Positions 3,462-63,543 of a stretch of 64,000 bases of DNA are shown here, piece by piece. The translations under genes and the position numbers were made by a program. The notes beneath the pieces are model-generated. The model was not told the origin of the DNA, searched no databases, and saw only the letters and a program-made list of their open reading frames with translations. Location: NCBI GenBank assembly GCA_963965975.1, contig OZ014411.1, forward strand, positions 14,896,501-14,960,500, read 5' to 3'. Position 1 is the stretch's first letter; each line of letters begins with the position of its first letter. This stretch comes from Xestospongia bergquistia (lineage: Eukaryota; Porifera; Demospongiae; Haplosclerida; Petrosiidae).

Positions 3462-3784
3462 GGGACCACTTCTGGCAAAAAAGGCCACTGTTAAAACATC
3501 TCAAAAACAGTTTCGTATACATACAGCTGCTATATATAAACAACAGTTCATGGTAATTGCATATACATATACAAAAATGTTTGTTGAGGTGTTTTAACAG
3601 TGATCCTTTTATGAAAAAAGTCCACTGTTAAAACATCTCAAAAACAGTTTCGTATACATACAGCTGCTATATATAAACAACAGTTCATGGTAACTGCATA
3701 TACGTATACAAAAATGTTTGTTGAGGTGTTTTAACAGTGATCCTTTTTCATAAATCACGTCACAAATGTTTTGACAGAAGTGGT
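3462..3784. repeat. Doubled inverted-repeat MITE
   Basis: Two head-to-tail units, 3486-3602 and 3623-3739, are nearly identical. Each starts CACTGTTAAAACATCTC and ends GAGGTGTTTTAACAGTG, so each can fold on itself. The outer flanks are also inverted relatives (ccacttctggcaaaa on the left, reverse complement of ttttgacagaagtggtgcc on the right). This looks like one MITE with an internal duplication, or two nested copies. No transposase is present. Confidence 0.7.
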
Positions 3785-34900: not shown

Positions 34901-37900
34901 AAACAATATCATCAAATCCTTGTTTTCATTTCAATATAAACATTGGGTCAACCTCCAATATTGCTCAAGCAATGAGTACCTGTTGGCTTTATATAACACC
35001 AGATACTATTTTGGGGTTATTGTATGATTTAGAAGTAGTTTCATTTTTTGTGCATTATAACAATGATAATGAGAGCATTACTACAAACATATTATATTGC
35101 CAGAAGCCAATAACATCAACTGAGTCAGGAGTGTTTAACTATGTTGTATACCATAAAGTAAACACTTTCTCAAGAATTACCATATAAGGAAACATTAAAT
35201 TGCTTAGTTGATTACTTTCATTCATGATATTAGTACTTATGCTTTCAAAAGTGGTTGTAAAATTACTACTGTAGTTGTCTAATACTGTAACAGTTTCTTA
35301 AAGGTTATGTTGCATTCTTTTTGATAGTGCTTTTGTAAGATGAGATGTAATGTTGTGATTTAGAATTTATAATAAATTATGTATATTGTTAATTTAATAT
35401 AAATATGTTTAGCAGTTTATTTTGCTAAAGTATTTATATTGTGTGTAATTGAAAGTACATGGTTATCTCAAAAGAGAATATGTTGCTATTCTTGTACTGT
35501 GTTGTTAATATAATGTAGTGACTTAAAAAGCATTTTGTGCTTGTTTAAGAGCTTGTAGCACTGATAATAGTTGTACATTCTATCTTTCTGTTAAAGAAGC
35601 TATTTGTTAAATTTGTTTTATATTTAAGATAAATAAGTATTTTGTTCAAAGCCTTTTCCGAGCAGTTGTGACTAAATTGTCTTTTTAAGGAGTGCTAGTT
35701 CTTCTTCTATGCTATTAAAAAATAAGTAATTTTTATTATGGTTAGAGACTACTGTGAATTGTCATATATATATATATATTATAATAGCAATGACTAGAGT
35801 ATGATTGCAGCTTCCTATGGGTATCTTGTGACATTTCAGATAGTTGCAGGTTGTCAGTTGTTAATGTTAATTATTAATTGACTGTTTTGTCTCTTTTATT
35901 AATGTATTCCAGTTTTGTCTTTTTCTTTTCTAGAGCCTTGTTATTATTGCATATAGCCACACAGTAGAATCTCAACTATACTCATGTTTCAATACTATAT
36001 TGCTATATTTATGTGTGTGTGTGTGTGTGTACTATTCCAACAATACATTTTACCATCATTTACATGAATCTTTGTGTATGTGTGTCTTCGTGTGTAGTAT
36101 GTATTTCATGGAGCATGTATAAGTCATTCACCAAAGTCAAAGTAGATATACTATTAAGTTAATAATTATCAAATATTGCCAAAGCAATCAAACTCCAGAT
36201 ACTATTATAGAATTTGTCTGTTTTTACTAATAGTTTAGTGTATTAGTAGTTTAATTTTATAGTTGATACTTTGTTTGTTTTTATAATAGGCTGGATGGGC
36301 AGCTCTTCATTATGCAAGTTATGAAGGACATACAGACATTGTTGAAGTATTACTCAACCATGGAGCTAATATCAATGTTGTTACTAAGGTAATTGAAATC
36401 ATGAGAATAAGTGTGTTTTACTCTAACATTTAAGTTGTGTAAACAGATAGTAACTATTAGAGATCACAAAGCATAGACTTTATAATTGTACTACATTATC
36501 AATAAAAAGTCTTAATGTGCAGAACCTTTGACACAATAATAGATAAATTACACTGAGTTGTATTACTTTGCAATTGGCATGCTAGCCCTGCATTGCCCGG
36601 TATCAAACAAACAACCATACACTGACACACAGAATGAACAGAGTAATTCTAATTCATCATGAGGATTAATGAAGTAGTAGTCTAAAATACTAGATCCTTT
36701 TCTTATGATCTACGTAAACATAACAAAGCATAACAAAATAATTATAAAGACGATTAAAAGAACATTATTTTCTAAGTTTGTTAAATGTGGTGTGGTCATT
36801 ATATTTTCTCTCCCGTATTGTTCCTCTAACATATAGAGTGATGTGATTTCTTGTTATCTCTATGTATCATTTTAAACATGATAGAGAATAATTATCATAT
36901 AATGTAATATAACTTTTGCGTTTACTGACTACAGTTTTGTTTATTTTTTGTCTTTTTTATACTTTTTGCTCCCACAATTATGATAATGTGATTACTTGTA
37001 TGTGTCCTTTGGAATAAAATAGCGGGTAAGTGTGATATAATGCAATACAACTTATAAGTTTATTAAGTACAATATTGTTATTTTATTCTTTCTTATATTT
37101 TTGCTCCCACATTCCTGATAATGTGATTACTTGTCATCATTATGTAACATTTACAATATAATAGGAGGTAAGTTTGATATAATGTAATACAATTTATAGG
37201 TTTATTGAATACAATGTTGTTACTTTATTTTTCTTATATTTTTCTCCCACATACCTGATAATGTGACTACTTGTCGTTTGCATGTGTCATTTACAATATA
37301 TTAGAAGGTAAGTGTGTTATAATATAATACAACTTATAAGTTTATTGAATACAACATTGCTATTTTGTTTGTTTTTATATTTTTTCTCCCACATTTATGA
37401 TAATGTGATTACTTGTTATTGCCTTGTGTTATTTACAACATAATAGGAGGTAAGTATGATATAATATAATACAACTTATAAGTTTATTGAATACGACATT
37501 ACTATTTTGTTTGTTTTTATATTTTTTCTCCCACGTTTATGATAATGTGATTACTTGTTAATGCCTTGTGTCATTTACAACATAATAGCTGGTAAGTATG
37601 ATATAATGTAATACAACTTATAAGTTTTCTTGAATGCAATATTGTTATTTTATTTGTTCTTATATTTTTTCTCCCACATTTATGATAATGTGATTACTTG
37701 TTATTGCCTTGTGCCATTTACAATATAATAGCTGGTAAGTGTGATATAATGTAATACAACTTATAAGTTTATTGAATACAATATTGTTATTTTATTCGTT
37801 CTTATATTTTTTTCTCCCACATTTATGATGATGTGATTACTTATCATCATTATGTGATATTTGCAATATAATAGCGGGTAAGTGTGACATAATGTAATAA

Positions 37901-40900
37901 AACTTATAGGTGTATTGAATACAATGTTGTTACTTTATTTGTTCTTATATTTTTTTCCCTCATTCCTGATAATGTGATTACTTGTCATCATTATGTAACA
38001 TTTACAATATATTAGGAAGTAAGTGTGTTATAAAGTAATACAACTATAAGTTTATTGAATACAACATTGCTATTTTGTTTGTTTTTATATTTTTTCTCCC
38101 ACATTTATGATAATGTGATTACTTGTTATTGCCTTGTGTTATTTACAACATAATAGGAGGTAAGTGTAATATAATATAATACAACTAATACGACATTGCT
38201 ATTTTGTTTGTTTTTATATTTTTTCTCCCACATTTATGATAATGTGATTACTTGTTATTGCCTTGTGTCATTTACAACATATTAGCTGGTAAGTGTGATA
38301 TAATGTAATATAACTTATAAGTTTTCTTGAATGCAATATTGTTATTTTGTTTGTTCTTATATTTTTTCTCCCACATTTATGATAATGTGATTACTTGTTA
38401 TTGCCTTGTGCCATTTACAATATAATAGAAGGTAAGTATGATATAATGTAATAGAACTTATAAGTTTATTGAATACAATATTGTTATTTTATTCATTCTT
38501 ATATTTTTTTCTCTCACATTTATGATGATGTGATTACTTGTCATCATTATGTGATATTTGCAATATAATAGCGGGTAAGTGTGACATAATGTAATAAAAC
38601 TTATAGGTGTATTGAATACAATGTTATTTTGTTTGTTCTTATATTTTTCTCTCACATTCCTGATAATGTGATTACTTGTTATCGCTACATGTTATTTACA
38701 ACATAATAGGTGGTAAGTGTAATATAATGTAATACAACTTACAGGTTTATTGAATAAAATGTTGTTATTTTATTCATTCTTATATTTTTTCTCCCACATT
38801 CCTGATAATGTGATTAATTGTCGTTTGTATGTCATTTACAATATAATAGGAGGTAAGTGTGTTGAAATGTAATAGAACTTATAAGTTTATTGAATACAAT
38901 GTTGTTATTTTATTTGTTCTTATATTTTTGCTCCCAAATTTATGATAACATGACACTTGTTATTGCTGTGTTATTTACAACATAATAGAAGGTAAATGTG
39001 ATATAATGTAATACAACTTATAAGTTTTCCTTAAATGCAATATTGTTATTTTATCCATTCTTATATTTTTGCTCCCACATTTATGATAATATGATTACTT
39101 GTTATCCTTATGTGTCCTTTGCAATATAATAGGAGGTAAGTCTGTTATAATGTAACACAACTTATACATTTTCTTGAATGCAATATTGTTATTTTATTTG
39201 TTCTTATATTTTTGCTCCCAAATTTATGATAACATGATTACTTGTTATTGCTGTGTTATTTACAACATAATAGAAGGTAAATGTGATATAATGTAATACA
39301 ACTTATAAGTTTTCCTTAAATGCAATATTGTTATTTTATCCATTCTTATATTTTTGCTCCCACATTTATGATAATATGATTATTTGCTATCCCTATGTGT
39401 CCTTTGCAATATAATAGGAGATAAGTCTGTTATAATGTAACACAACTTATACGTTTTCTTGAATGCAATATTGTTATATTATTTGTTCTTATAATTTTGC
39501 TCCCACATTCTTAATAATGTAATTACTTGTCGTTTGTATGTGTCATTTACAAAATAATAGGAGGTAAATGTGTTATAATGTAATATAGCTTATAAGTTTA
39601 TTGAATACAACATTATTATTTTGTTTGTTCATATATTTTTTCTCCCACATTTATGATAATGTGATTACTTGTTTTTGCCTTTTGTCATTTACAACAAAAT
39701 AGCTGGTAAGTGTGATATAATGTAATACAACTTATAAGTTTATTGAATACAATATTGTTATTTTATTTGTTCTTATATTTTGTTCCCACATTCCTGATAA
39801 CGTGATTACTTGCTATCCCTATATGTCATTTGCAATATAATAGGAGGTAAGTGTGATATAATGTAATGCAACTTATAAGTTTTCTTGAATGCAATATTGT
39901 TATTTTATTCATTCTTATATTTTTGCTCCCACATTCCTGATAATGTGATTACTTGTCATCATTATGTGACATTTACAACATAATAGGTGGTAAGTGTGAT
40001 ATAATGTAATATAACTTATAACTTTTCTTGGATGCAATATTGTTATTGTCTTGTTGTTATATTTTTTCTCCCACATTTATGATAATGTGATTACTTGTTA
40101 TTGCCTTGGGTCATTTACAACATAATAGGCGGTAAGTGTGATATAATGTCATGCAGCTTATAAGTTTTCTTGAATGCAATATTGTTATTTTGTTTGTTGT
40201 TATATTTTTTCTCCCACATTTATGATAATATGATTACTTGTTTTTGCCTTGTGTCATTTACAACATAATAGCTGGTAAGTGTGATATAATGCAATACAAC
40301 TTATAAATTTATTGAATACAATATTGTTATTTTATTTGTTCTTATATTTTTGCTCCCACATTCCTAATAACATGGTTATGTCAATCACAATATAATAGGC
40401 AGTAAGTGTGATATAATGTAATACAACTTATAAGTTTTCTTGAATGCAATATTGTTATTTTATTCGTTCTTATATTTTTGCTCCCTCATTCCTGATAATG
40501 TGATTACTTGTCATCATTATGTGACATTTACAACATAATAGCGGGTCAGTTTGATATAATGTAATACAAGTTATATGTTTATTAATTACAACATTGCTAT
40601 TTTTTGTTCTTATATTTTTTCTCCCACATTTATGATAATGTGATTACTTGTTATTGCCTGTGTCATTTACAACATAATAGGTGGTAAGTGTGATATAATA
40701 TAATTCAACTTATAAGTTTTCTTGAATATATTATTGTTATTTTGTTTGTTGTTATATTTTTTCTCCCACATTTATGATAATGTGATTACTTGTAATTGCC
40801 TTGTGTCCTTTACAACATAATAGACAGTAAGTGTGATATAATGTAATACAACTTATAAGTTTTCTTGAATGCAATATTGTTTTTTTAACCATTCTTATAT

Positions 40901-43900
40901 TTTCTCTCCCACATTTATGATAATGTGATTACTTGTTATGGCTTTGTTATTTACAACATAATAGCTGGTAAGTGTGATATAATGTAATGCAACTTATAAG
41001 TTTTCTTGAATGCAATATTGTTATTTTATTCGTTCTTATGTTTTTGCTCCCACATTTATGATAATATGATTACTTTTCATCCTTATATGTCCTTTGCAAT
41101 ATAATAGGAGGTAAGTGTGATATAATGCAATACAACTTTCAAGTTTTCTTGAATGTAATATTGTTGTTTTATATTTTTGCTCCCACATTCCTGATAATGT
41201 GATTACTTGTCGTTCGTGTGTGTCATTTACAATATAATAGGAGGTAAATGTGTTATAATGTAATACAACTCATAAGTTTATTGAATACAACATTATTTTG
41301 TTTGTTCTTATGTTTTTTCTCCCACATTTATGATAATGTGATTACTTGTTATTGCCTTGGGTCATTTACAACATAATAGCTGGTAAGTGTGATATAATGT
41401 AATACAACTTATAAGTTTTCTTTAATGCAATATTATCATTTTGTTTGTTGTTGTATTTTTTCTCCCACATTCCTGATAATGTGATTACTTGTTATTGCCT
41501 TGTGTCATTTACAATATAATAGCTGGTAAGTGTGATATAATGTAATACATCTTATAAGTTTATTGAATACAATGTTGTTATTTTATTCGTTCTTATAATT
41601 TTGCTCTCACATTATGATAACGTGATTACTTGCTATCCCTTTGTGTCATTCGCAATATAATAGGAGGTAAGTGTGATTATAATATAATACAACTTATAAG
41701 TTTACTTGAATGCAATATTGTTATTTTATTTGTTCTTATATTTTTGCTCCCACATTCTTGATAATGTGATTACTTCTCATCATTATGTGACATTTATAAT
41801 AAAATAGGAGGTAAGTTTGATATAATGTAATACAACTTGTAAGTTTATTGAATACAACATTGTTATTTTGTTTGTTCTTATATTTTTTCTCCCACATTTA
41901 TGATAATATAATTACTTGTTATTGGTATATGCCATTTACAACATAATAGCTGGTAAGTGTTATATAATGAAATGCAACTTATAAGTTTATTGAATACAAT
42001 ATTGTTATTTTATTTGTTCTTATATTTTTGCTCCCACATTCATGATAATGTGATTACTTGTCAAAAATTTTATCCTCAAATATTTTAATTAGGAGTGTGA
42101 TAGTAGGCAAAAGATATCATTCACTTAAGTTAATCTCTTCAAACTCTAGCATATATCAATTCACCAATATTTTCTCCTTCCAAAATTATTCATTATGTAG
42201 TATTCAATGTGAAATATAATTACCACCTTTTGAGTCAGTAGACAGCTATATATTGACCTCACTGACCAGTCACACTGAAACATTCCAGCTGCTTCTACAT
42301 TTTAATGCCAATCCTATGATTTTTAGAAAGATTATTCTGTAGTGCTATACTTGTAATGTGATGTTGTTAACATAGTGCAGGGAATTAAAGAACATTTTGA
42401 GCTTGTTTGATAACTGATAGTAATGATAATAGTTGTACATGTAATCTACCTTTCTGTTAAAGAAGCTTTTTGTTTAATTTGTTTTGGGAAAGATAAGTAA
42501 CTTTTTGTTCAAAGTCTTTTCTAAAATGGCTTGAGTAATCGTTTTTGTAAAGAACTGTAGTTCTTTTCCTATGCTACTAAGAAATGAGCAATAATAATAT
42601 GATCACCGACTGCATTATAAATAAGGACATTACAGCTCTTTAATGTTTCTCACGCGTTTATATTTACAATGTCGTGCTGATAATTATGCAAAAATTAGTC
42701 ATTTGTGAAGTAATGGCTATGTATATTTCTGTACTAAATAGTGTTATTTGTATTGATGACATTATTGTAAGAGTTATTGAAAGTAGTTTGTTTTGCATAA
42801 TTGTATTTCATTTGACTTATACTTTGTAATGTTGTCTGAGTTATATGTTACTAGTGTACTACATACATGTATGTAACACTACTAGTATGAATAATTATTT
42901 ATGATATATTATTTAGTTCACATTAAGGTGGTTATTATAATATATTTAGGAGGGATCTACTCCAGTCATATTAGCAGCAAAGAATGGACACAAGGATATT
43001 GTTTTGATTTTAGCACAGAATGGAGCCAATCTAGACATCGTTAACAAAGTAAGTGTTTATATATATATGTTGTATACCCTGTATAACTGATGATGAAATG
43101 TGGATGTCTTAAAAATATGAAAAATGCATGATTATCACAATCGGACTATTTTTAAAATAAAAATTAGAATAAATTTTTAGTTAATATATGAATAATAAAC
43201 AAGTATGATTACAGCCATACATATTCATGGTTATATCACTGAAGCGATACACTAAACATAGCATGGGGCTCAACTAAGTTTGTGAAATGAAGACTTGCTT
43301 ACTAGCATGATGTCTTTTTTGCATTTTCAATGTTAGTATTGAATTTCAATCTTTGCTTTTGGTAGTGGCTGTGATAAGTTGTCAATCGTTTTAGATAAAC
43401 ATGTCTCAAGGACTTGTCTTCCTGATTCAAATCACTCTTTGAATGAAATGAAATGATCAAATAAATATCAATTTTATTTACGAATGGCTCTCATAATCTT
43501 TATGTATTTGAGTCTATTGCAATGGATAGATTGGAGCTTAAACTGCATTCTACAGATCTTTCTTTTACCTTCCACTGCTAACATAAGTAACCCAAATTAA
43601 GTTTTCATGCATGACAACTCTTGCTTTTAAACAAAACTATCTTGAAACCATGTTATCTCCTTTTAAAACGAAGGCAGTCTTCCTCTTCAATTATGTTTAG
43701 CTATTGATGAATATCATACATGTATGTATGGACATTAGAGAGCACAGTGACATTAGATGTTCAATTATAGTACCAGCAAAAGTATCAACATTCATTGGGC
43801 TACTTCACACTCTGCTAATGATTGTTATTTTATATAAGCCACCTGATCAACACATGACCATAGTTGACTGGCATTCTTATGATTACAATAAAACATACCT

Positions 43901-46900
43901 ATTTTATATCACTGAAGCCATACACAAACTATACAATGGAACTTAGTGAAATGAAAACTGCTTACTAACATAATGTTATTTTTTTGCTTTTTTAATTGTA
44001 GTACTGAATCTAAATTTTGTCTTTTTCCAGATAGTGTTATGATTACATGAATATGAATATCATTATTCTACCAACCTGCATGAATTATATTTTTATTTAT
44101 TATTCATTGCATAATTAAAATTATTATAATGAATAGGGACAAATAAAAATATCATGAGACCTCACTAAGATGTAAAAACCAGGCTGCCATTACTTTCGTG
44201 ACAACAATATTAGACATCCACATTATGCAAGGAGTTTGTTATTATAGAGTTAAGCAATCATCAATAGCATCAAATTTTCGTCATGATGCCTTTATATTGT
44301 TTAACATATAGCTATCACACCCATAATGGCAATACATTAATATGTAACGCAGTCATTGTGCATATGTCATGTATGTATTATATAGTATAGTGTTAAGTTT
44401 ATATAGTACAGGATGTAGTATATTGTATGAATTGATGATATAATATAATTGAAGAAAATATTGAAGTACCATATACCTAGTAACTTTGGAGGGAGAAAAT
44501 ATTGACAAATTTCATGAATTGTATTTCAATTTCAAAAATTTTATCCTCAAATATTTTAATTAGGAGTGTGATAGCAGGCAAAAGATATCATTCACTTAAG
44601 TTAATCTCTTCAAACTCTAGTATATATCAATTAACTAATATTTTCTCCTTCCAAAATTATTCATTATGTGGTAGTCAATGTGAAATATAATTACCACCTT
44701 TTGAGTCAGTAGACAGCTATATATTGACCTCACTGACCAGTCACACTGAAACATTCCAGCTGCTTCTACATTTTATTGCTGATCCTATGATTTTTATATA
44801 GAAAGATTATTCTGTTTTATGTACAGATATTGTTATATGTATTACGTATTTTTAAGACTATGTCATATGCATAATGAATAATATAAATTTGCCTAGGATC
44901 ATATGACAGCTCTACATTGTGTAACAAGGAATAATGACACTGAGATAGTCCGGCTACTCCTGCAATATAGTGCAGACCCTAATATTTGTGACAAGGTTAG
45001 TCAATTACTTATTTCATTGTTAATCTACTTTAACACAGGATGGTAATACTGCATTACATATTGCCTGCAAAGAAGGTCATACAAATATTATACAATCCTT
45101 GCTATCTCAAGGAGCTGATGCAACTATTAAGGATAATGAGGGTAACACTCCATTAGATGAATGTCAAGGCATCAGGAAGGATGAAATTGTTAGTCTTGTC
45201 TCTGAGTACAATCCAAAACGAGGTGAGGTATTAAACAAAGACTATGTAGTACTCCTGATTATTTTGTTTAGTTTTGGAAGATGTGTCTGAATGGAATATT
45301 GAATATGTCAATGAAGAGCAAGTTTTTGAGAAACCAGAGTATGGAGTCAAGTTTGTCATTCCACCATCATCAGTAGAAAAAGGGCAAGAAGTCAAAACTG
45401 AAGTCAAAGTAGTTGCACCAGAAGAGTCAGAGATCATCCTCCCTCCTGATGTTGAGCTTGTTAGCTGTTTCTACAAGATTGAAACAATGGGAAAATTCTC
45501 CAGACCTATTGAACTTCATCTTCAACATAACATTGAGCTAAGGTCACAAGAGGAAAGTCAACAGCTAGCCTTTGTAAAGGCTAAAGGACCACCACCCTAC
45601 AAGTTTGAGCTGTTACCAACTGAATCAGACCAAATGTTCAGACCTTACGACAATTCTGGTGTTTTACAAATCTCTGATTTCTCTTTTGTCGGTATTGTCA
45701 TTAAAGAAATAAAGAGTGCTCTATTTCAACAGCCATCTCGCAGTTATGTAATGACAGTATTTTTCAAGGAGATGGAGAAATTTTGTTGGGAAATACAAGC
45801 AGTGGTTACAAAAAATCTTGGGCCTTTTCTTGAGGTATGGAGTCATCACAAAAAGAGAATTACAATACTATGTTACCACTGTATTCATGTTCTTTTGCCT
45901 GTATTAGAGAGTGAACACAGAGAAACGCTTTGAAAACTGGAAAAGGATAGATCCAGTTACTATTGTTGATCCTGACATTAATGAAGTTACAATTGCTAAT
46001 GAGTGTTATGACATTAAACCAATGATGAACCCATTTCAAGTAAAGTACTAGTTGATGTTGTGAAGTTAAATTTGTTTTGTTTAAGGTTTCTAGGAAACTC
46101 ATCGATCAATGTCAACCAGACACTGCCCTACCTTACTTAAAATTCAAAGTCTCTCTTATAGATAAGAAGGAACTCGCTGACCTAGAGCTCACTTTTAATG
46201 GAATAAGTGAACAGATGAGTTTGGTAATTCCTAGTTATGATTTGCAACAACAGCAGGAGACAACAAGTGAGTGTCAATAAAGATAAAATATACTCATGTT
46301 TTAATAAATATTGTCTGAGGTTTTCCAAAATATTGAGGTAATGTATAGAATGGTACACTCTTTTTTGCTAATATAGCTCACTTTACTGGCAGTACTTCCA
46401 CCACTGTTCCTACTCCCAACATGTCTACTTCCACCAGTAATCCACCAGTAAATAATGAAGTGTTATGTGAGTTATACAATAAGCACGTTAATGGATAATT
46501 TTGGTGTTGAACTAATTAAATCATCTTTCACATTTTCTCATTATTAGGTAAAGAGCCCAAAAAGAAACACCTGACAAGAGTACTTCATGACATTAAGTAC
46601 ATGTGGAATACTATTGGTGAACAACTTGAAGTGCGTTATGGTGATATAAAGTCTGCTGAATATAATGTGGCATATGACCATACCACAAAACTCTCAGAAG
46701 TCCTTCAGGTGTGGATAGATAAGAGAACATGTGAAGTGTCTTGGAGAATGATCATCGCTGTTGTCAAGGAGCCACCTGTAGAAAACAAAGCAGTAGCTGA
46801 GAAAATATATAAATTCTTAGTAAGACCTGATATCAGGAATGAATATATCTCTTCTGATCAACCTGGTAAATTTTACAAAATTGTTGTAACAATTGTTTCT

Positions 46901-47789
46901 ATGTTGTTCTATAGGTCAAGTGATTACCACTTTTAATTCTCCACCTTCAGCTCAACCAAAACCTATTGAGATCAAAGGTATAACAATAGCTATAATGTTC
47001 AATAAAAAATGACATATTTGTCCTGTAGATATCCCTGTCAATGCTACCATTTCACCTTCAAATGATCCTGCTAAGACAATAGGAGGTATTTTAATCAATA
47101 AAAACATCCTAATTTTAACAGGATACTAGACCCGTGCATTTCAGATGATGATAAAAAACCTGAAATCACCTCTAACAAAGAAGGTTTGCATATACATGTA
47201 CATCAAACTGTTATTACAGAATCAACCCTCTAGAAACCACCACAGTAACATCAGAGAAGCATAGTGTGCATGTTAAGGGAAAAGGTTTGTTTCAGCAGTT
47301 AAAGTTCAAATGCATAATATGTAACCTACCAAATTTTCTTCCATGCACTTCAGATGATGATGAGAATCCTGAAGTCAGCTTGGACCAAAAAGGTAGATTT
47401 GTATATCAACTGTATTACATTATAAATCCCTTAGAAACCATGTCAGTAACTCCAAAAGATAATAGTGTAAAGGAAAAAAAAGGTTTGTTATAGCATTTAA
47501 AGTGCATATATGTTATATGCAATAAGCTACATAATTTCATACTTCATTTTTATTTGTATTTTCCAAGAATTTGGTATCTAAAATTAATCTTTTCCTCATT
47601 GTAATTTAACTAGTGGTATACACACTCGTGTCTGACATGGAATTTCATGTCATTCCTACTTTTAAGTGCATTGTTTGGATATGTGATTTTTTTTATTTTC
47701 TAGAAAAGAATAATAGCTGGTCTTTATTGATGTTGGTAGGGATTTTTCTTGCCATTTTGGCCTATTTTATATACCAAAAAATAAACTAG
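28913..47789 (+). CDS. Ankyrin-ZU5-UPA-like-Death protein with C-terminal anchor (18 exons)
   Basis: Exons: 28913-28930, 34730-34822, 36290-36388, 42950-43048, 44897-44995, 45039-45222, 45272-45834, 45908-46039, 46086-46266, 46377-46466, 46548-46865, 46915-46977, 47029-47085, 47145-47183, 47234-47284, 47354-47392, 47435-47482, 47704-47789. They splice to 753 codons including TAG. Five ankyrin repeats come first, several encoded one per 99-nt phase-0 exon (ALHYASYEGHTDIVEVLLNH). Then a ZU5 domain (YGVKFVIPPSSVEKGQEV, ILPPDVELVSCFYKI), a UPA-like stretch, a Ser/Thr/Pro linker, a Death domain (WNTIGEQLEV, then SWRMIIAVV), a duplicated acidic mini-exon linker and one membrane helix (LLMLVGIFLAILAYFIY) with only QKIN after it. 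Family knowledge suggests a cytosolic death/immune adaptor; the tail anchor suggests an organelle membrane. The first exon (MDQEQL) is the least certain part; everything from 34730 is firm. Confidence 0.85.
28931..30006. other. Intron 1, first part
   Basis: Mostly non-coding. A coding-like tract at about 29690-29780 (ESVDSVHIELEVSDSKSD) is followed by a GTAAGT donor. It could be a transposon exon or a relic. A mobile-element end seems present near 29410-29470 (gggcagactagggcattgcc). Confidence 0.4.
30007..30951 (+). pseudogene. Tc1/mariner-type DDE transposase relic in intron 1
   Basis: Starts MPKGKRINSTVKN at 30007, followed by a helix-turn-helix-like N-terminal region in shifting frames (IYDYFENESKKCKG). 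The DDE core follows: first Asp in VVYLDESWAN (about 30460), a GTRLIILHAGSENGW block, KKATGDYHDEMNSNNFVEWF, and the second Asp in SLIVIDNASYHSR (about 30760). The C-terminal block with the third acidic residue is absent, cut off about where an LTR-element fragment begins. Several frameshifts and stops make it inactive. A plain DNA transposon relic in an intron of the ankyrin-Death gene. Confidence 0.78.
30945..31530 (+). mobile_element. Ty3/gypsy fragment
   Basis: An LTR-like lead (about 30945-31080) is followed by a gag start (MATRLLGALAPFEPTKMQW) and then a piece resembling the beginning of reverse transcriptase. A short, broken fossil in intron 1; the 3' end and second LTR were not found. 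Confidence 0.55.
31531..32289. other. Intron 1, middle part
   Basis: Nothing supported. A 21-base stretch around 32125-32170 occurs twice in tandem (ctatactgtcatcgga). Confidence 0.4.
32290..33070 (-). pseudogene. piggyBac transposase relic in intron 1
   Basis: Read on the minus strand from about 33060 to 32300, pieces of a piggyBac (DDE_Tnp_1_7) transposase appear in order: LQVLDFFTPPLMANIVQQSN, WKDITVEELKAYFGFVFL, DWKRDPVFHYSPIADRIS, KVKPVIDHLSRIFFDAY, VAVCEAMIKF, GRSSLKQHM and GYRQNGYFQKFEIYSGKEG. The CEAMIKFKGRSSLKQ-type block is characteristic of the family. Frames shift between pieces, so it is dead. No terminal repeats were recognised. Confidence 0.75.
33071..34729. other. Intron 1, last part
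   Basis: No gene. From about 33900 on, the sequence is related to 53900-54649 before the first ankyrin exon of the partial second copy, so the duplication began upstream of that exon. Confidence 0.6.
34823..36289. other. Intron 2
   Basis: Non-coding. The block at about 35500-35740 (around gttaaagaagctatttgtt and the following cttcttctatgct) is related to 42350-42610 and 56890-57130, which lie before the third ankyrin exon of each gene copy. (GT)n runs at about 36013-36030. Confidence 0.55.
36810..42058. repeat. ~141-bp satellite, about 36 tandem units, in intron 3
   Basis: Typical unit: ttctcccacatttatgataa, tgtgattacttgtta, catttacaacataatag, three variable bases, gtaagtgtgatataatgtaa, tacaacttataag, and an AT-rich tail with ttgttattttatt. 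Sites of the GTAAG-like core fall near 37026, 37167, 37307, 37449, 37591, 37733 and so on to 41951, spaced about 120-160 bases, mean about 141. The first unit (about 36810-36960) is diverged and is also present before 56.3 kb. The array stops abruptly at 42058. A copy with only about four units exists at 56140-56830, so the array expanded in this gene. Confidence 0.92.
42059..42340. repeat. Intronic ~280-bp repeat, copy 1
   Basis: Begins tcaaaaattttatcctc and is nearly identical to 44534-44815. It abuts the end of the satellite without any transition. No terminal inverted repeats are seen. Confidence 0.88.
43049..44533. other. Intron 4, first part
   Basis: Non-coding. The stretch 43180-43920 is related to 57840-58985 downstream of the partial copy. 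Inside it, tatcactgaagc and the following taaacata and gcttactaacatgatg tracts recur at 43230-43320 and 43900-43975. Confidence 0.55.
44534..44815. repeat. Intronic ~280-bp repeat, copy 2
   Basis: Second copy of 42059-42340, in the next intron of the same gene, same orientation. The high match suggests a recent duplication. Confidence 0.88.
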
Positions 47790-50942: not shown

Positions 50943-52068
50943 AACTGTAGCTCCCTAAATTATATGCATTATGATAACTTTGTTATTTTGCTTTAAGCAC
51001 CTGTACATCACAAAGATGTAATTCTTCAGAAAAAAGGTACTAGTGATGTACATTTTTGTGCTTGGCCATTCTTCCAAAGAGATCTATATATGTATATTGC
51101 TCTTTTCATATATTTATTGTCAAACAATGAGAAGAGTATACCTTCGTAATTGAACTGATTATAATTATTAGACTAGTTTGAAAATGCATTTTTCATCTTG
51201 GACATAATACCCCTTCTTTTTCAGGCAACATCACCTTTTGGAATAACTTTTTGATTTCATCTTCTATGTTAGTTCCCTGCATGATATGTGGAATGTTTTA
51301 TCAACACATTAATAGTACTGTATATGTCATACTTGTACAGCTACTTGTAGATTTCATTGGTTACTTTTATAAGATCTGGACAATCCACATTTTAGGCATT
51401 TATAACTATATTATGTTAAATATAAATTTTATATGTATGCCTGTGTCTTACTAGTAACAGTTTCAGTTAAATTGTGTACATTATTATCACTTATAAGTTA
51501 TAATTAAATTAATATATCAAAAGTACTAATATTAAAGAATTTGAGTAAGAAACTCATGAGCATCTTCCTGATCACCTGGAGACTAGTGTGAAATAAATTC
51601 TATAAAATATGTAATTTGCTTCATATTAGTTTTATCAATCAAGTTATTATGGATCTCTATAGGCTGTATTACTTTAGCTCCCTCCTCCATGCAAAAATTC
51701 TTTAACGTTTTAATGAAACATTTGCAACATAATGTAGCTAAGAGTATTTTTATATTATAATCATATAAATAAGAACAATTCTTATATTGCACACTTCATG
51801 TTTATTTATATATTCTTGTAGATGAGGAATATGAAGGATTATCTGAATGGTTGCATTTGCAAAGCAAGTGTTTCCTAGATTTGTTAATCCTGAGGGAAGA
51901 CTTGAGTCCATCACAGATCTCATCATGTGTATTTACTGTTTATTATTCATTAAAAGGTCATAATATAATAATTAATTAAAAGACCACGCCCACAAAGAAC
52001 TTACTATTAGGCGAGTATAACGTTTGTTGTTCTTGTGTTCGGATATAAATGAGCTGTTATCATAAACT
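50943..52068. other. Non-coding stretch
   Basis: No certain gene. An open tract at about 51821-51975 after a possible acceptor (EGLSEWLHLQSKCFLDLL) might be an exon of an unknown gene. Confidence 0.3.
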
Positions 52069-55000: not shown

Positions 55001-57566
55001 AACAGGATGGACGGGCAGCTCTTCATTATGCAAGTTATGAAGGGCATACAGATATTGTTGAACTATTACTTAACCATGGAGCTAATATCAATGTTGTTAC
55101 TAAGGTAATTGAAATCATGAGAATAAGTGTCTTTTACTCTAACCTTTAAGTTGTGTGAACAGACAGTAACTATCAGAGAAGACATAGCATAGACTTTATA
55201 ATTGTACTACAATAACAATGAAAAGAAAATGTGCAAAACCCTTGAAACAATAGCAGATGAATTACACTGAGTGGTATCACTTTGTAATTGGCATGCTACC
55301 ACTGTATGAGAATTTATCAAGTAGTGAATCATTATTAGAAACCTAATTCTAAATAGTAACATCCATTGTAGTAGTTGTTTCAATACTATTTCTGCTACAT
55401 TACTCACGAGCCTGCTATAATCAGAATTGTCTACAGATTTATATTCTTAGCCTTACTTTATACAAGTAATGCCAAATTACCCACAATAAATTGCCAGTGA
55501 CAATCACACAGTCAATTGACAATTTCTTTAGACTCTTTTCCTTTGCTGCCTTTATATTTTGTAGTCTTAGGTATAGTTTTTGTAATGTTAACACTTGCTA
55601 TAGCAGTAGCTCTTTCCAAATGTCTCCACTTACCTCAAAAACTATAAACAAAGGAGCATGTCAAAGTGAATTTTAAAATGTTATAACTTCAAAACAAACC
55701 ATTTTTACAAAACTTGGCACATCAAGTTTGTAGGTAGTTGTATTTTATACACACTTTCATTTTATTAGAGTTATCAACTCAACTTACCTGTGCTTTTTAA
55801 AACCCCATTTCCAACTGTTTAAATTTTTACTTTTTTGGCAGCCATTTTACTATAAATGACTTTTTAGTTATCTTTAACCATCTTTATCAAAACCTTTGTA
55901 GTTGTATCCACTATTGTTATTAATAACCAGGTTATAGTAGTTCAAAGTGCATTGCCTAGTAACAAGGAAATATACACATATCCTGACGCTCAGAATGAAC
56001 ACAGTATTTCAAAACTACCATGAAGGTTAATAAGTTAGTAGTCTAAAAAACTAGATCTTTTTATGATTCACATAAACATAGCAAAACATAACAAAATATG
56101 TAGTCTATATAAAAAGGCCATTATGATATAAGTTTGTTGAATGTGGTGTGGTCATTATATTTTCTCCCTCATATTTTTTCTCTGTCAATTGTGGTGAAGT
56201 GATTTCTTCCTATCTCTATGTATCATTTATAGTATGATACAGAATAAGTATGATATAATGTAATATAACTTATATTTTTAGTGACTACATTTTTGTTTAT
56301 TTTTGTCTTTTATATTTTTGCTCCCACATTTATGACAATATTACTTGTCATCTCTGTGTGTCATTTACAATATAATAGTGGGTAAGTGTGATAAAATGTG
56401 ACACAACTTATAAGTTTATTGAATACAATATTGTTATTTTATTCGTTCTTATATTTTTTTCTCCCACATTCATGATAATCTAATTACTTGTCATCCCTAT
56501 GTGTCATTTACTATATAATAGGAGGTAAGTGTGATATAATGTCATACAACTAATAAGTGTATCTAATACAATATTTTTATTTTATTCGTTTTTATTTTTT
56601 TGCTTGCATATTAATGATAATATAATTACTTGTCATCTCTCTATGTCAATTTTAATATAATAGAGAGGTGAGGCAAATTTGTGATATATTGCAAATACAA
56701 CTTCTAATTTTATTTAATACAATATTGTTATATTTTCATTCTTATATTTTTTATCCTGCATCTATGACAATGTCATTGCTTGTCACCTGAATGTGTCACA
56801 TACAATATAAAGCTGGCAATTGTGATATATTGTGGTGTAATTTCTAATTCTATGCACTGCAATGTTTCATTTCATTTAGTCTATTGTTTGTTTCCACATT
56901 GATGTTGTTGACATAGCATAGAGACTTATAGAATGTTTTGTTCTTTGAGAACTTGGAGATTTGACAATGTAATCTACCTTTTTGTTAAAGAAGTTATTTG
57001 TTGAATTTTTTTTGTTTCTGTGAGAGAAATAGATAATTGTTTGTTCAAAGTCTTTTTTGAAATGGCATGAGTAAATTCTCTTTGTAAAGAGCTTTGATTC
57101 TTCCTCTATGCTGCTAAGAAATGAGCAATAATAATATAGTTACAGACTACTGTGAAGTTTCAAATGATATTTACAATGTCATGTTGATAATTGTGCAAAA
57201 ATATGTCAATGGTGATGTAATGGGTATGTATGTTTATACACTTAAGAGTGTTATTTGTATTGATGACATTACTGTAAGAGTTGTTGAGAATAGTTTGTTT
57301 AGCATAACTATCGATTTGACTCGTATTGTAATGTTGTCTATGTTTATAATGTTACTAGTGTGCTCGTGTAATAGATACATGTACATAACACTACTACTAT
57401 AGATAATGTACAAATGTTATGATATATTCTTTAGTTCACATTAATGTGGTTTTTATAATATATTTAGGTGGGATCTACTCCAGTCATATTAGCAGCAAAG
57501 AGGGGACATAAGGATATTGTTTTGATTTTAGCACAGAAAGGAGCCAATCTAGACATTGTTAACAAA
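52069..57566 (+). CDS. Partial second copy of the ankyrin-Death gene (ankyrin exons only)
   Basis: Three exons match the first gene: 54650-54742 (NDSLIKCVQEGNLSGVEDAI), 55006-55104 (ALHYASYEGHTDIVELLLNH) and 57468-57566 (STPVILAAKRGHKDIVLILA). All are phase 0 with good GT-AG borders and are free of stops. A possible first exon ends at 52071 in ATG directly followed by GTAAGT, so the start codon would be the last three bases of exon 1. Intron homology runs to about 58985 and then stops. No fourth or fifth ankyrin, ZU5 or Death exon appears before the window ends. Either the copy is truncated or its 3' part lies beyond the window, past the Ty3 element. The differences from copy 1 are mostly conservative, so it may still be expressed. 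Confidence 0.6.
52660..53790. repeat. Pair of diverged direct repeats in intron 1 of the partial copy
   Basis: The stretch 52660-52960 (around gattataacaatctaag, then ttgactgtagtatgtt-like) recurs at 53470-53790 in the same orientation with many changes. Between them nothing is recognised. Other parts of 52072-54649 are non-coding; from about 53900 the sequence is related to 33900-34729. Confidence 0.6.
55105..57467. other. Intron between second and third ankyrin exons of the partial copy
   Basis: Contains a related but short version of the intron 3 satellite (about 56140-56830, roughly four units). It also has the block at 56890-57130 shared with 35500-35740 and 42350-42610. The part 55290-55930 has no counterpart in the first gene and is an insertion of unknown kind. 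Confidence 0.65.
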
Positions 57567-60153: not shown

Positions 60154-63100
60154 CTGTACTCCCCCCCCCCAGAGAGTTATGTAATGAATGGATATAATTG
60201 AAACTTTACTGATGGACGGACAGGACATCCGTAACGAGTAGTAGTTGATGAAGAATTAGGAGACGTAGTAACTGGAGTAGATGGTGTAGTATCAGTATGA
60301 TCAATGCTTGAATTATTTCGATCAATGTTAGCATTAGTGTCTTGTAGAGTATCCATGTTAGTACTGTTAGTAGCAGTCAGTTCTGCCTCCATGTATGCGG
60401 GTTTTAGCCTGTCAATAGAAACTGTGTCTTGCTTCCCACGGATCTTGATAGTAAAATAGTTATCATCACGATCGATAACTTTAAATGGTCTGTCGTATGG
60501 TGGTTGGAGTGAAGTTTTGACACCATCATGTCAGACGAAAACAAATTTGGTAGAGTTAAGATGTTAATGAATAAAAGAGGTATGGGATGATTGAGCTTGT
60601 GTAGGGTAAGACATACTTTGGTCATTATAGACTTAAGTTTTGAAATGTAAGTTGTATCTGGTATAGCATCAGGTGATGGTAAGAAAAACTGTCCAGGTAA
60701 ACACAACGTAAAACCGTACACTAGTTCAGCAGTACTGCAACCTAGATCTTCTTTTACTGCTGCTTTTATACCTAGTAGTACTAGTGGGAGTGTATTAATC
60801 CATGGAGTGTGTTGCCCATGAGCTCGAAGAGCTGCTTTGAGAGTACAGTGGAAACATTCTATGATACCATTGGACATAGGGTGATATGCAGTGGTTCTGA
60901 TTCTATGTGTACCTAAGATTTTCATTAACTGCTCCATAGATGTGACTCAAACTGAGTACCTTGATCAGTTGTGATTGTGGAGGAAATCCCAAAACAAGCG
61001 ATCCAACCACTGACAGAAGCGTTGGCAACTGTCTCCGCTGTGATGTTGGCAATAGGGAGTTCTTTACACCAACGAGTAAAACAGTCGATGCATGTTAATA
61101 AGTAAGTATAACCACCTGATGGAGGGAGGGGGCCAACAATGTCAATGTATATTTGATCAAACCTAGCAACTGATTTGTTGAGTGTTGCTAAAGGAGAAGA
61201 GTTGTGACATTGTACTTTTGACCACTGACAACTTAGGCATAACAGAGCACACTGTCGAACATCCTTGTAAATTCCTGGCCAGACGAACCGGGAAGTGATA
61301 AGCTTTTGTGAAGCCCTTATACCTGGGTGGAATAACGAGTGGAAGGAGTCAAATACTGCTCGTCTAAAACTAGCTGGTACAAAAGGGCTTGATTCTGCTG
61401 TAGACGTGTCACATATTAATGAAGTATCACCAGTTGATAAAGGAATAGGAGTCAAGTTTAAGGCAAGAGGTGATCGTAGCATTCTAATACTTCTGGATCA
61501 GTTTGTTGAGCTACTGTCATTGCTGTGAAATCAATATCATTGGATTGTTGCAATGCTAATTAATGTCAACTCGTGACAGTGCATCTGCCACTGGATTGTT
61601 AGAACTTTTCGCATGGCTTATATCAGTAGTGAATTGTGAAATAAAGTCAAGTTGACGTGCTTGACGAGGTGAATAACAATTAGAATTAGTAGCAAATGAG
61701 AATGTGAGAGGCTTATAGTCAGTCAAAACATGAAATTCACGACCTTCAATAAAATCCCTGAAATGCTTGATGGCAAGATATATGGCTAATACTTCTCTAT
61801 CAGATGTGCTATAGTTAGTCTCAGCTGAGGAGAGTTTGCAGGAGAAATAGGAAATTTGGGTGCCAAACTCCATCCACAAATTGCTGCAGAACCACTCCCA
61901 CGGCTGTGTTAGATGCATCTGACATAATGGAGGTGGGAGCGCCTAACTTGGGATGTGATAACATTGTGGCTTTAGCTAAGCAAACTTTTATATCTTCAAA
62001 GGCTTTTTAGGCTTCTTCATTCCAAATCAACTCGTTAGCTTTTAACAGTGTGTGTAATGGATGTACAATGTGTGCACAGTTAGGTATAAACCTGTGGTAA
62101 AAGTTGACTAGCCCCAGGAACTTTCTCAGCTGTTTCATTGATTGTGGCTTGGGCAACTCTGTAATGGCTTGTACTTTAGTTTCAATGGGACGAATACCGT
62201 TGGCATCAACGTAATGACCTAAAATAATGAGTCCATAGTCACTTAAACGTTGAAATACTGTCTTGGAATAGAGAGAGGAGAGATAACGAGATTGGGGGTT
62301 GTAAAGATGAGGCCAGTATATTTATTTGTAAGTGAGTAACTGTGTCAAGTAAGCGTTTATTGTGTGCATCTACTAGTAGTTTATGACATTGTAAGAAGTC
62401 GATACCTATAATTGGATACTGTACGTCTACTATAATGAAAACCCACTTGAATGATCTGCGTAGTCCTAAATTAAGTGCAATCAGCTTGGTACTGTAGGTG
62501 CGAACTGAAGTATTGTTTGCTGCCTGAAGAGTTAAATTACTAGATTTGCATTGCCTGTCAAATCGAGACGGAGGGTATACACTAACTTCTGCCCCGTATC
62601 CACTAGAAAACGTGTGTTTGATGTGCGATCATGAATAAAGAATAGACGACTGTTAGTGTTGCCAGGAGCACTGGTTGTCGTCAGTGACTGGCCTGTTCCT
62701 TTCCCATCCAAGTGCACCGAGGTTGGCACTTTTTGGCATCATCCCCAAAACGGTGATGATACCAACAGAGATTGGAGGGCGGTTGTGTTTTACGTGGAAC
62801 AGGGCTGGGTGAATGACAAGGGGACTTAGAGGGACGATGGTTAAATGAAGGTTATGGAAAATGCATGGATTTGAATAATGACTTGAGATCTGATATCTCT
62901 GAACATAATTGATCAACATCTGAGTTGGGTGTTGATTTGAGTTACTGCTGGTGCAGCTACATCCGTTACCGTTACTTTATCAGCTAGATCTGCCTGTTCT
63001 TCTAACAACTGAGATCCTCCAGCAGAAGCTAGAACCATTCTCACATTTGGGGGTAATCCTTGTAAAAATAAGTCCCATAGGAAAGCAGTGTCTGCCATTA

Positions 63101-63543
63101 CTGCTTTGTCTCCAAGGAGTTGTTTCATTATTCTAAGCAGCTGAGACGGCTTCCTATCACCTAGCTCTTCAATATTGAAGAGCTGCTGTAAGGGGCGTTG
63201 CTCTGACACCATAGTTCTTGCTATCAGTTGGGTCTTAAGGCTGTTGTTATAGGGGTTGGTTGCTGGGGGCTTAAGAATTATGGCTCTTACTTCTATAGCG
63301 ACCTCTGGCATCAGAGAAGCAATTACATGATCAAATTTGGTCTTCTGTGAGGTGATATTGCGGATACTGAACTGTGCATCCACTTGAGCAAACCATACCT
63401 CAGGGTCTGCAGGCCAAAAAGGAGGGATTTTGATGTTCGCAGCAGTAACCGCTGGGATTAAGGATGATGGCTGCTCCTGTTGCTATGGTGGTTCTTGCTG
63501 CTGTTCATCTGCCATGGCATACGATCACATCTGGGGTCACCAA

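Follow-up and report, generated by a model that had tools for sequence, protein, structure and literature searches.

Intronic satellite arrays in a sponge ankyrin-repeat gene family as candidate menus of one-codon alternative exons

Why should nearly every unit of a satellite array lying in an intron of an ankyrin-repeat gene carry an acceptor-like AG and a donor-like GTAAGT with exactly three bases between them? The question is raised by a 64,000-nucleotide (nt) stretch of the genome of the sponge Xestospongia bergquistia (assembly GCA_963965975.1, contig OZ014411.1, positions 14,896,501 to 14,960,500 of the forward strand), here called the window, in which the initial annotation had described AATAG, three bases and a GTAAGT-like sequence in most units of the array. 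We analysed this array together with pattern matches in the whole genome and with paralogous ankyrin loci. Judged from the DNA sequence, the array is probably a menu of alternative exons, each a single codon long, that serve one junction between ankyrin repeats.

In the window, Tandem Repeats Finder (TRF) reported a single array on the plus strand at 36841-42061, with a period of 143 and 37.1 copies. The core A[AT]TAG-NNN-G.[AC]A[GA]T was matched by 35 of the ~37 units (ATTAG in 3 of the 35), with a spacing of 127-144 and both predicted splice sites kept, in agreement with the initial annotation; two further units have lost a splice base (36880, GATAG-AGA-ATAATT; 39413, AATAG-GAG-ATAAGT). Among units that keep both predicted sites, the candidate one-codon exons of the array run from CGG (Arg) at 37023-37025 to CTG (Leu) at 41950-41952. 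The triplets of these 35 units were GAG (11), CTG (9), CGG and AAG (4 each), GTG (3), and GAA, GCG, GCA and ACA (1 each), and the residues they offer are E, L, R, K, V, A and T. The host intron of 6561 bases (36389-42949, plus strand) separates two exons on the same strand, each of exactly 33 codons encoding one ankyrin repeat with a Pfam Ank match, and the junction is in phase 0. These are the upstream exon ex1 (36290-36388; E 4.7e-11; ACTAAG followed by the donor GTAATTGA) and the downstream exon ex2 (42950-43048; E 1.4e-07; acceptor TATAATATATTTAG followed by GAG, and AACAAA followed by the donor GTAAGTGT), with the edges and phase first proposed for them. An inserted codon would stand after ...VVTK and before EGSTP....

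The pattern was found to be widespread. In the whole genome AATAGNNNGTAAGT had 2002+1630 = 3632 matches against 112+82 = 194 for a reversed-pattern control, and an exact 27-base core had 397+356 = 753 matches against 0+0 for its reversed control; the counts exceed the controls so far that the window observation is not due to chance. Paralogous loci were examined in a 40-kb stretch at C1:9.61 Mb and in 200 kb from contigs C5, C7, C8 and C12, chosen largely by core hits and partly by TGG hits. Clusters on C2, C4, C6 and most of C1 are known as at least the pattern or BLAST places listed. In the paralogous loci, exons of the ex1 type (GWAALHYA...) alternated with exons of the ex2 type (GSTPV..., GFTAV... 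and similar). All 26 ex1-to-ex2 introns with both exons in the DNA examined contained units, from 1 to 38 each, while units were found in none of the 29 ex2-to-ex1 introns of these loci; the intron count leaves out 145 units whose upstream exon lay outside the DNA examined, as well as one ex1-to-ex1 gap that contained none. At each locus the units were confined to one strand, that of the ankyrin exons. Host introns were 1.1-9.5 kb long, array lengths at the 9.6-Mb locus alone spanned 1 to 38 units, and several arrays in series can occupy a single locus. A tandem series of homologous candidate exons with an exon on either side, as in a cluster of mutually exclusive exons, is a recurrent arrangement of this family. 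Many ankyrin-matching open reading frames (ORFs) of ~600 to 2968 codons without stops were also present on contigs C14, C7, C10 and C11 among the matches listed, so that ankyrin genes of a single exon seem to be abundant alongside the intron-rich family.

Does the triplet have the properties of a codon? Between exact flanks in the whole genome the gap was 3 nt in 753 cases, 2 nt in one and 4 nt in none, and of 399 anchored matches with a GTRAGT-like donor, 398 had 3 nt between it and AG. The 753 exact-core triplets included a single stop (TGA 1, TAA 0, TAG 0), 561 had the form NNG, and TGG, which is one base from two of the stops, occurred 86 times, a share that is unbiased genome-wide and biased in the examined loci by the TGG-based choice. 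As in a mutually exclusive exon cluster, the candidates would keep the frame (3 nt, phase 0) and are almost free of stops. In the loci examined we found 559 units, of which the 433 with one of six GTAAGT-like donors were analysed and the 126 others set apart; triplet, column and intron counts leave out loci L001-L008 and L013-L018 and units near a locus end (75 bases upstream, 85 downstream). The 433 units carried 31 triplet types (TGA included) specifying 17 amino acids; base frequencies predict 41.6 stops, and one was observed. When each triplet was counted once per intron (n=190), one stop remained; the shuffles averaged 15.3 stops, and none of the 5000 was as low. All 15 sense NNG codons were observed in these units, TAG alone of the 16 being absent. 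Triplets had a GC content of 0.61 versus 0.24 for the remainder of the unit, and only 11 of 465 pairs of distinct triplets within one intron were synonymous.

The loose set of 3632 matches held 18 TAA or TAG and 6 TGA triplets. Except for C1:9612271, these stops lay outside the array clusters among the matches listed, some of them in the wider surroundings of clusters (C6:4724645 at ~80 kb and C2:1515678 at ~160 kb from listed places). Outside anchors revealed four TAG triplets, all in locus L037 and each in a unit whose acceptor AG is changed to AT. These four units (L037 positions 1406, 1977, 2781 and 4502 in reverse-complement coordinates) read AATATTAGGTAAGT, with AG touching GT as in a recursive splice site.

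We then asked where in the unit the variation lies, using whole-unit alignments of five families made with the triplet masked. Among the 433 GTAAGT-like units, triplet positions 1 and 2 exceeded all other columns (~150) in four of the five families; in the window family position 2 was the most variable, and one non-triplet column (0.627) stood just above position 1 (0.624). Position 3 ranked from 5th to 56th across families. Pairs of units whose flanks were no more than 2% apart nevertheless had different triplets in 90 of 154 cases at the 9.6-Mb locus, 58 of 100 in C7, 249 of 324 in C8, 62 of 85 in C5 and 1 of 2 in the window, most often by two or three bases. The initial annotation had noted that the three bases vary while the AG, the gap and the donor core persist, and the wider comparison upholds this: the triplet is hypervariable and fixed in length inside a conserved block.

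Units with other donors, mostly GTAATT, formed a comparison class and behaved differently. In pairs selected by the same 2% limit, the triplet differed in 13 of 364 in C8, 8 of 21 in C5 and 3 of 6 in C7, and every difference was of one base. The near-constancy of the C8 triplets argues against a simple hotspot of context and indicates that homogenisation can keep triplets uniform. The GTAATT units are a less diverse companion class and need not be dead, because most ex1 copies themselves carry the donor GTAATT. In C8 (L019-L027), C5 (L028-L031) and C12 (L038), GTAATT units were seen with a mostly constant NNT triplet (GTT, GAT, ATT), and there they often alternate with diverse GTAAGT units in a ~640-bp repeat.

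The edges of the triplet resemble those of the family's own exons. AATAG at the unit end resembles the acceptors of most ex1 copies, and 26 of the 32 ex2 copies have a donor identical to that of the unit, GTAAGTGT. With predicted splice sites on both sides and a size far below the 30 nt that bounds a microexon, 35 of the ~37 window units and most anchored units have the form of microexons. An in-frame stop lies directly 5' of the triplet in 426 of 433 units, which precludes an in-frame upstream extension of the candidate exon. The first codon of ex1 varies between paralogues (A, D, S, I, E, N, R, T). A check proposed at the outset was whether AG and GT are conserved in excess of the other unit positions. 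In 558 units located by outside anchors, the A of AG was kept in 555, the G of AG in 551, the G of GT in 540 and the T of GT in 555, as that check anticipated; however, the conserved block extends from about -12 to +20 and is wider than the splice sites, so that AG and GT conservation alone is weak and not decisive. Likewise, the units have a weak polypyrimidine tract, as first described, but this does not decide against their use, the acceptor of ex2 itself (TATAATATATTTAG) being AT-rich as well. Taken together, the splice-like edges, the fixed 3-nt length, the sense orientation within phase-0 introns of the ex1-to-ex2 type only, the hypervariable triplet and the avoidance of stops support the microexon-cassette reading of the initial annotation at the level of sequence.

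We propose that each satellite unit would combine a short intron, rich in AT (GTAAGTGT...AATAG), with an exon of 3 nt. Splicing of ex1 to ex2 would join one triplet, occasionally none or a few, between the ankyrin exons in phase 0, and the mRNA would then encode one additional amino acid between two 33-residue repeats. Ankyrin repeats bind via the beta-hairpin loop, whose tip is a contact surface, and we take the repeat junction ...VVTK / EGSTP... to be this tip, where the added residue would probably lie. Serial arrays at one locus, combined with alternative splicing, could yield combinatorial binding surfaces. Unequal exchange would keep the flanks alike, while selection for different residues would keep the triplets apart.

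Several points weigh against a menu of one-codon exons. Ordinary exon definition recognises a 3-nt exon with difficulty. The shuffle expectations for stops assume that the three triplet positions are independent, which does not hold for units related by descent; in addition, the detection of units for the triplet, column and intron counts demanded AG and GT. The figure of 26 of 26 introns partly reflects the choice of loci by core hits, although this choice does not account for the absence of units from ex2-to-ex1 introns. The unit at C1:9612271 carries TGA with intact sites, the sole such core match in 753 and the sole unit detected in its intron. Within one array the same codon often recurs, and the GTAATT-class units of C8 are nearly invariant, so that part of each array may be passive. 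C8 also gives a cleaner comparison class than C5 or C7 do. No docking site was apparent from the duplex energy between the unit consensus and six unique flanks (2 in the window, 4 at the 9.6-Mb locus), for which 9, 21, 51, 4, 11 and 6 of 60 shuffles were as good, in a crude test covering two families and dominated by long AT-driven duplexes.

The competing explanation that survives best, though we regard it as unlikely, is that the one-codon exons are real without being mutually exclusive, several or all of them being spliced serially into a linker of variable length between the repeats. The lack of a detected sequence feature enforcing exclusivity, docking signal included, fits this explanation, as does the ~140-nt spacing of neighbouring triplets, which could be an intron; read in order, the window array is rich in E, L, K and R. 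Array lengths of 1 to 38 units at a single locus speak against such a linker, and up to 38 three-base exons in series would presumably be error-prone. Nor does the order of codons look like that of a linker helix. Among the 11 arrays with at least 13 intact units (of 42 stretches), 10 showed no helical amphipathic pattern by hydrophobic moment beyond 2000 shuffles, the window array included, and one 13-unit array beat all shuffles. Only one of the 11 arrays showed more clustering of like residues in adjacent units than its shuffles at p 0.05, and this array (C8c, p 0.036) is not the one that stood out by hydrophobic moment.

Much less probable is a neutral intronic satellite in which a single ancestral unit happened to have a core resembling AG-NNN-GTAAGT. 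The units are clearly kin by descent, variable in number and length, and are tandem AT-rich repeats with TRF periods of 143 and 136, as a neutral satellite would be. Its variation should, however, be spread irrespective of reading frame, whereas here the triplet columns are the highest in four of five families and stops are avoided; a hypervariable triplet of fixed length and high GC on near-identical flanks, in sense in one intron type, is equally unaccounted for. Plain descent from one ancestral unit, which the initial annotation had offered as an alternative, fails on the same diversity of triplets. We give just as little credence to splice decoys, which that annotation had also named; on this explanation the units draw U1 or U2AF, so that the host intron is removed more slowly or under control, and they are not included in mRNA. 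Donors matching the GTAAGT consensus, AT-rich acceptors and introns of 1.1-9.5 kb would suit decoys, but a decoy would not call for a varied triplet, for a gap of exactly 3 nt or for the avoidance of stops. The least credible is a mutational or recombination hotspot of DNA context acting on a triplet without coding meaning, since, although two- and three-base differences on near-identical units resemble clustered changes, the C8 GTAATT units share the AATAG-NNN-GTAA context and are nearly constant (less clearly so in C5 and C7), and a hotspot would neither avoid stops nor raise GC in an AT-rich unit. As a separate source of the triplet, target-site duplication of an inserted element was rejected by reasoning only, as the same triplet would be expected on both sides of each insertion.

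If the array is indeed a menu of single-codon exons, the satellite DNA would be a coding library whose hundreds of one-codon exons would probably escape routine gene annotation and read alignment with standard settings. Hardly any smaller alternative-exon cluster would be possible. Such an array would test how the spliceosome handles a 3-nt exon many times within one intron, and would offer receptor-like diversity by a further route, alongside Dscam, protocadherins and immune rearrangement. A more tentative extension, which we hold as a possibility somewhat short of even, is a somatic repertoire built codon by codon. In such a repertoire, large ankyrin families with satellite arrays in series would choose one binding-loop residue per array, stochastically or by mutual exclusion, and cells or individuals would differ as in recognition or self-marking, with homogenisation copying the cassettes and diversifying selection acting on their three bases.

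Other features of the window bear on the family or lie apart from it. A small array built from the unit of the main one (56212-56833, plus strand; 4.4 copies by TRF) contains two intact candidate exons, TGG (56379-56381) and GAG (56522-56524), and is flanked on the same strand by an ex1-type ankyrin exon 5' of it (55006-55104) and an ex2-type ankyrin exon 3' of it (57468-57566). Downstream of the main array, also on the plus strand, a stop-free stretch at 45027-45287 contains a further ankyrin repeat (Pfam Ank, E 1.1e-11), and another at 45262-45930 contains a ZU5 domain (E 1.1e-05) and probably belongs to the host gene of the array in the gene model that we infer; a Pfam search of the stop-free stretches 46059-46277 and 46523-46933 gave no match. 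The window further contains a 137-bp tandem duplication at 3477-3747 (two copies, 97% alike; TRF). On the minus strand, ORFs at 60177-63482 resemble, by eye, integrase, reverse transcriptase and gag-like parts of a Ty3/gypsy-type retroelement, and an ORF at 51750-51932 with GLTNLGNTCFANA appears, by eye, to be ubiquitin-specific protease-like.

How do these arrays compare with known systems? NAGNAG tandem acceptors consist of one acceptor pair with two options and, like the candidates here, offer a choice of three bases or one residue at a junction, but they involve neither an array nor a separate exon. Recursive splice sites are AG/GT ratchet points in long introns. The units resemble them in having an acceptor closely before a donor, yet exactly 3 nt lie between the two in all but one of the anchored matches, so that AG directly before GT is not the general rule; triplets ending in AG also create AG/GT, most triplets do not, and the four L037 units described above have AG/GT only. 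We found no reports of 3-nt exon arrays in the open-access literature, judging by titles and abstract starts among the matches listed, a search that mostly does not cover subscription papers. Single 3-nt microexons are described in mouse Ncam and Drosophila troponin T, and skipping of the latter removes one residue (PMC8042270). The exon length is the same, whereas those exons are described in the relevant passages as single and here many tandem candidates offer different codons. In micro-exon genes of Schistosoma most exons are of 15 bp, the range being given as 6 to 81 bp in the body text of the report and as 3-81 in its abstract, and introns reach 5 kb (PMC10526429). As portrayed there, many very short and mostly frame-keeping exons, alternative splicing and variable proteins are features in common; the passages concerned mention no tandem copies as alternatives for one position, and the genes considered here do not consist mainly of short exons of 6-81 bp, the flanking exons being 99 nt and the candidates 3 nt.

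The closest parallel is with Dscam1-type clusters. Dscam exons encode parts of immunoglobulin domains, whereas each candidate exon here is one codon within a satellite-like repeat. Genes of the Dscam1 type carry tandem alternative exons of which one is included, and several clusters per gene give combinatorial diversity (PMC8042237, PMC6071210). Selector and docking pairing is described for genes of this kind and was not found here in our crude test of six flanks. Tandem candidate exons and several clusters per locus are shared, and for the arrays we infer the choice of one exon per transcript. Without claiming membership in the mutually exclusive class, we suggest that the array would work like a one-codon version of a Dscam-type cluster, or as if a satellite had multiplied a single 3-nt microexon.

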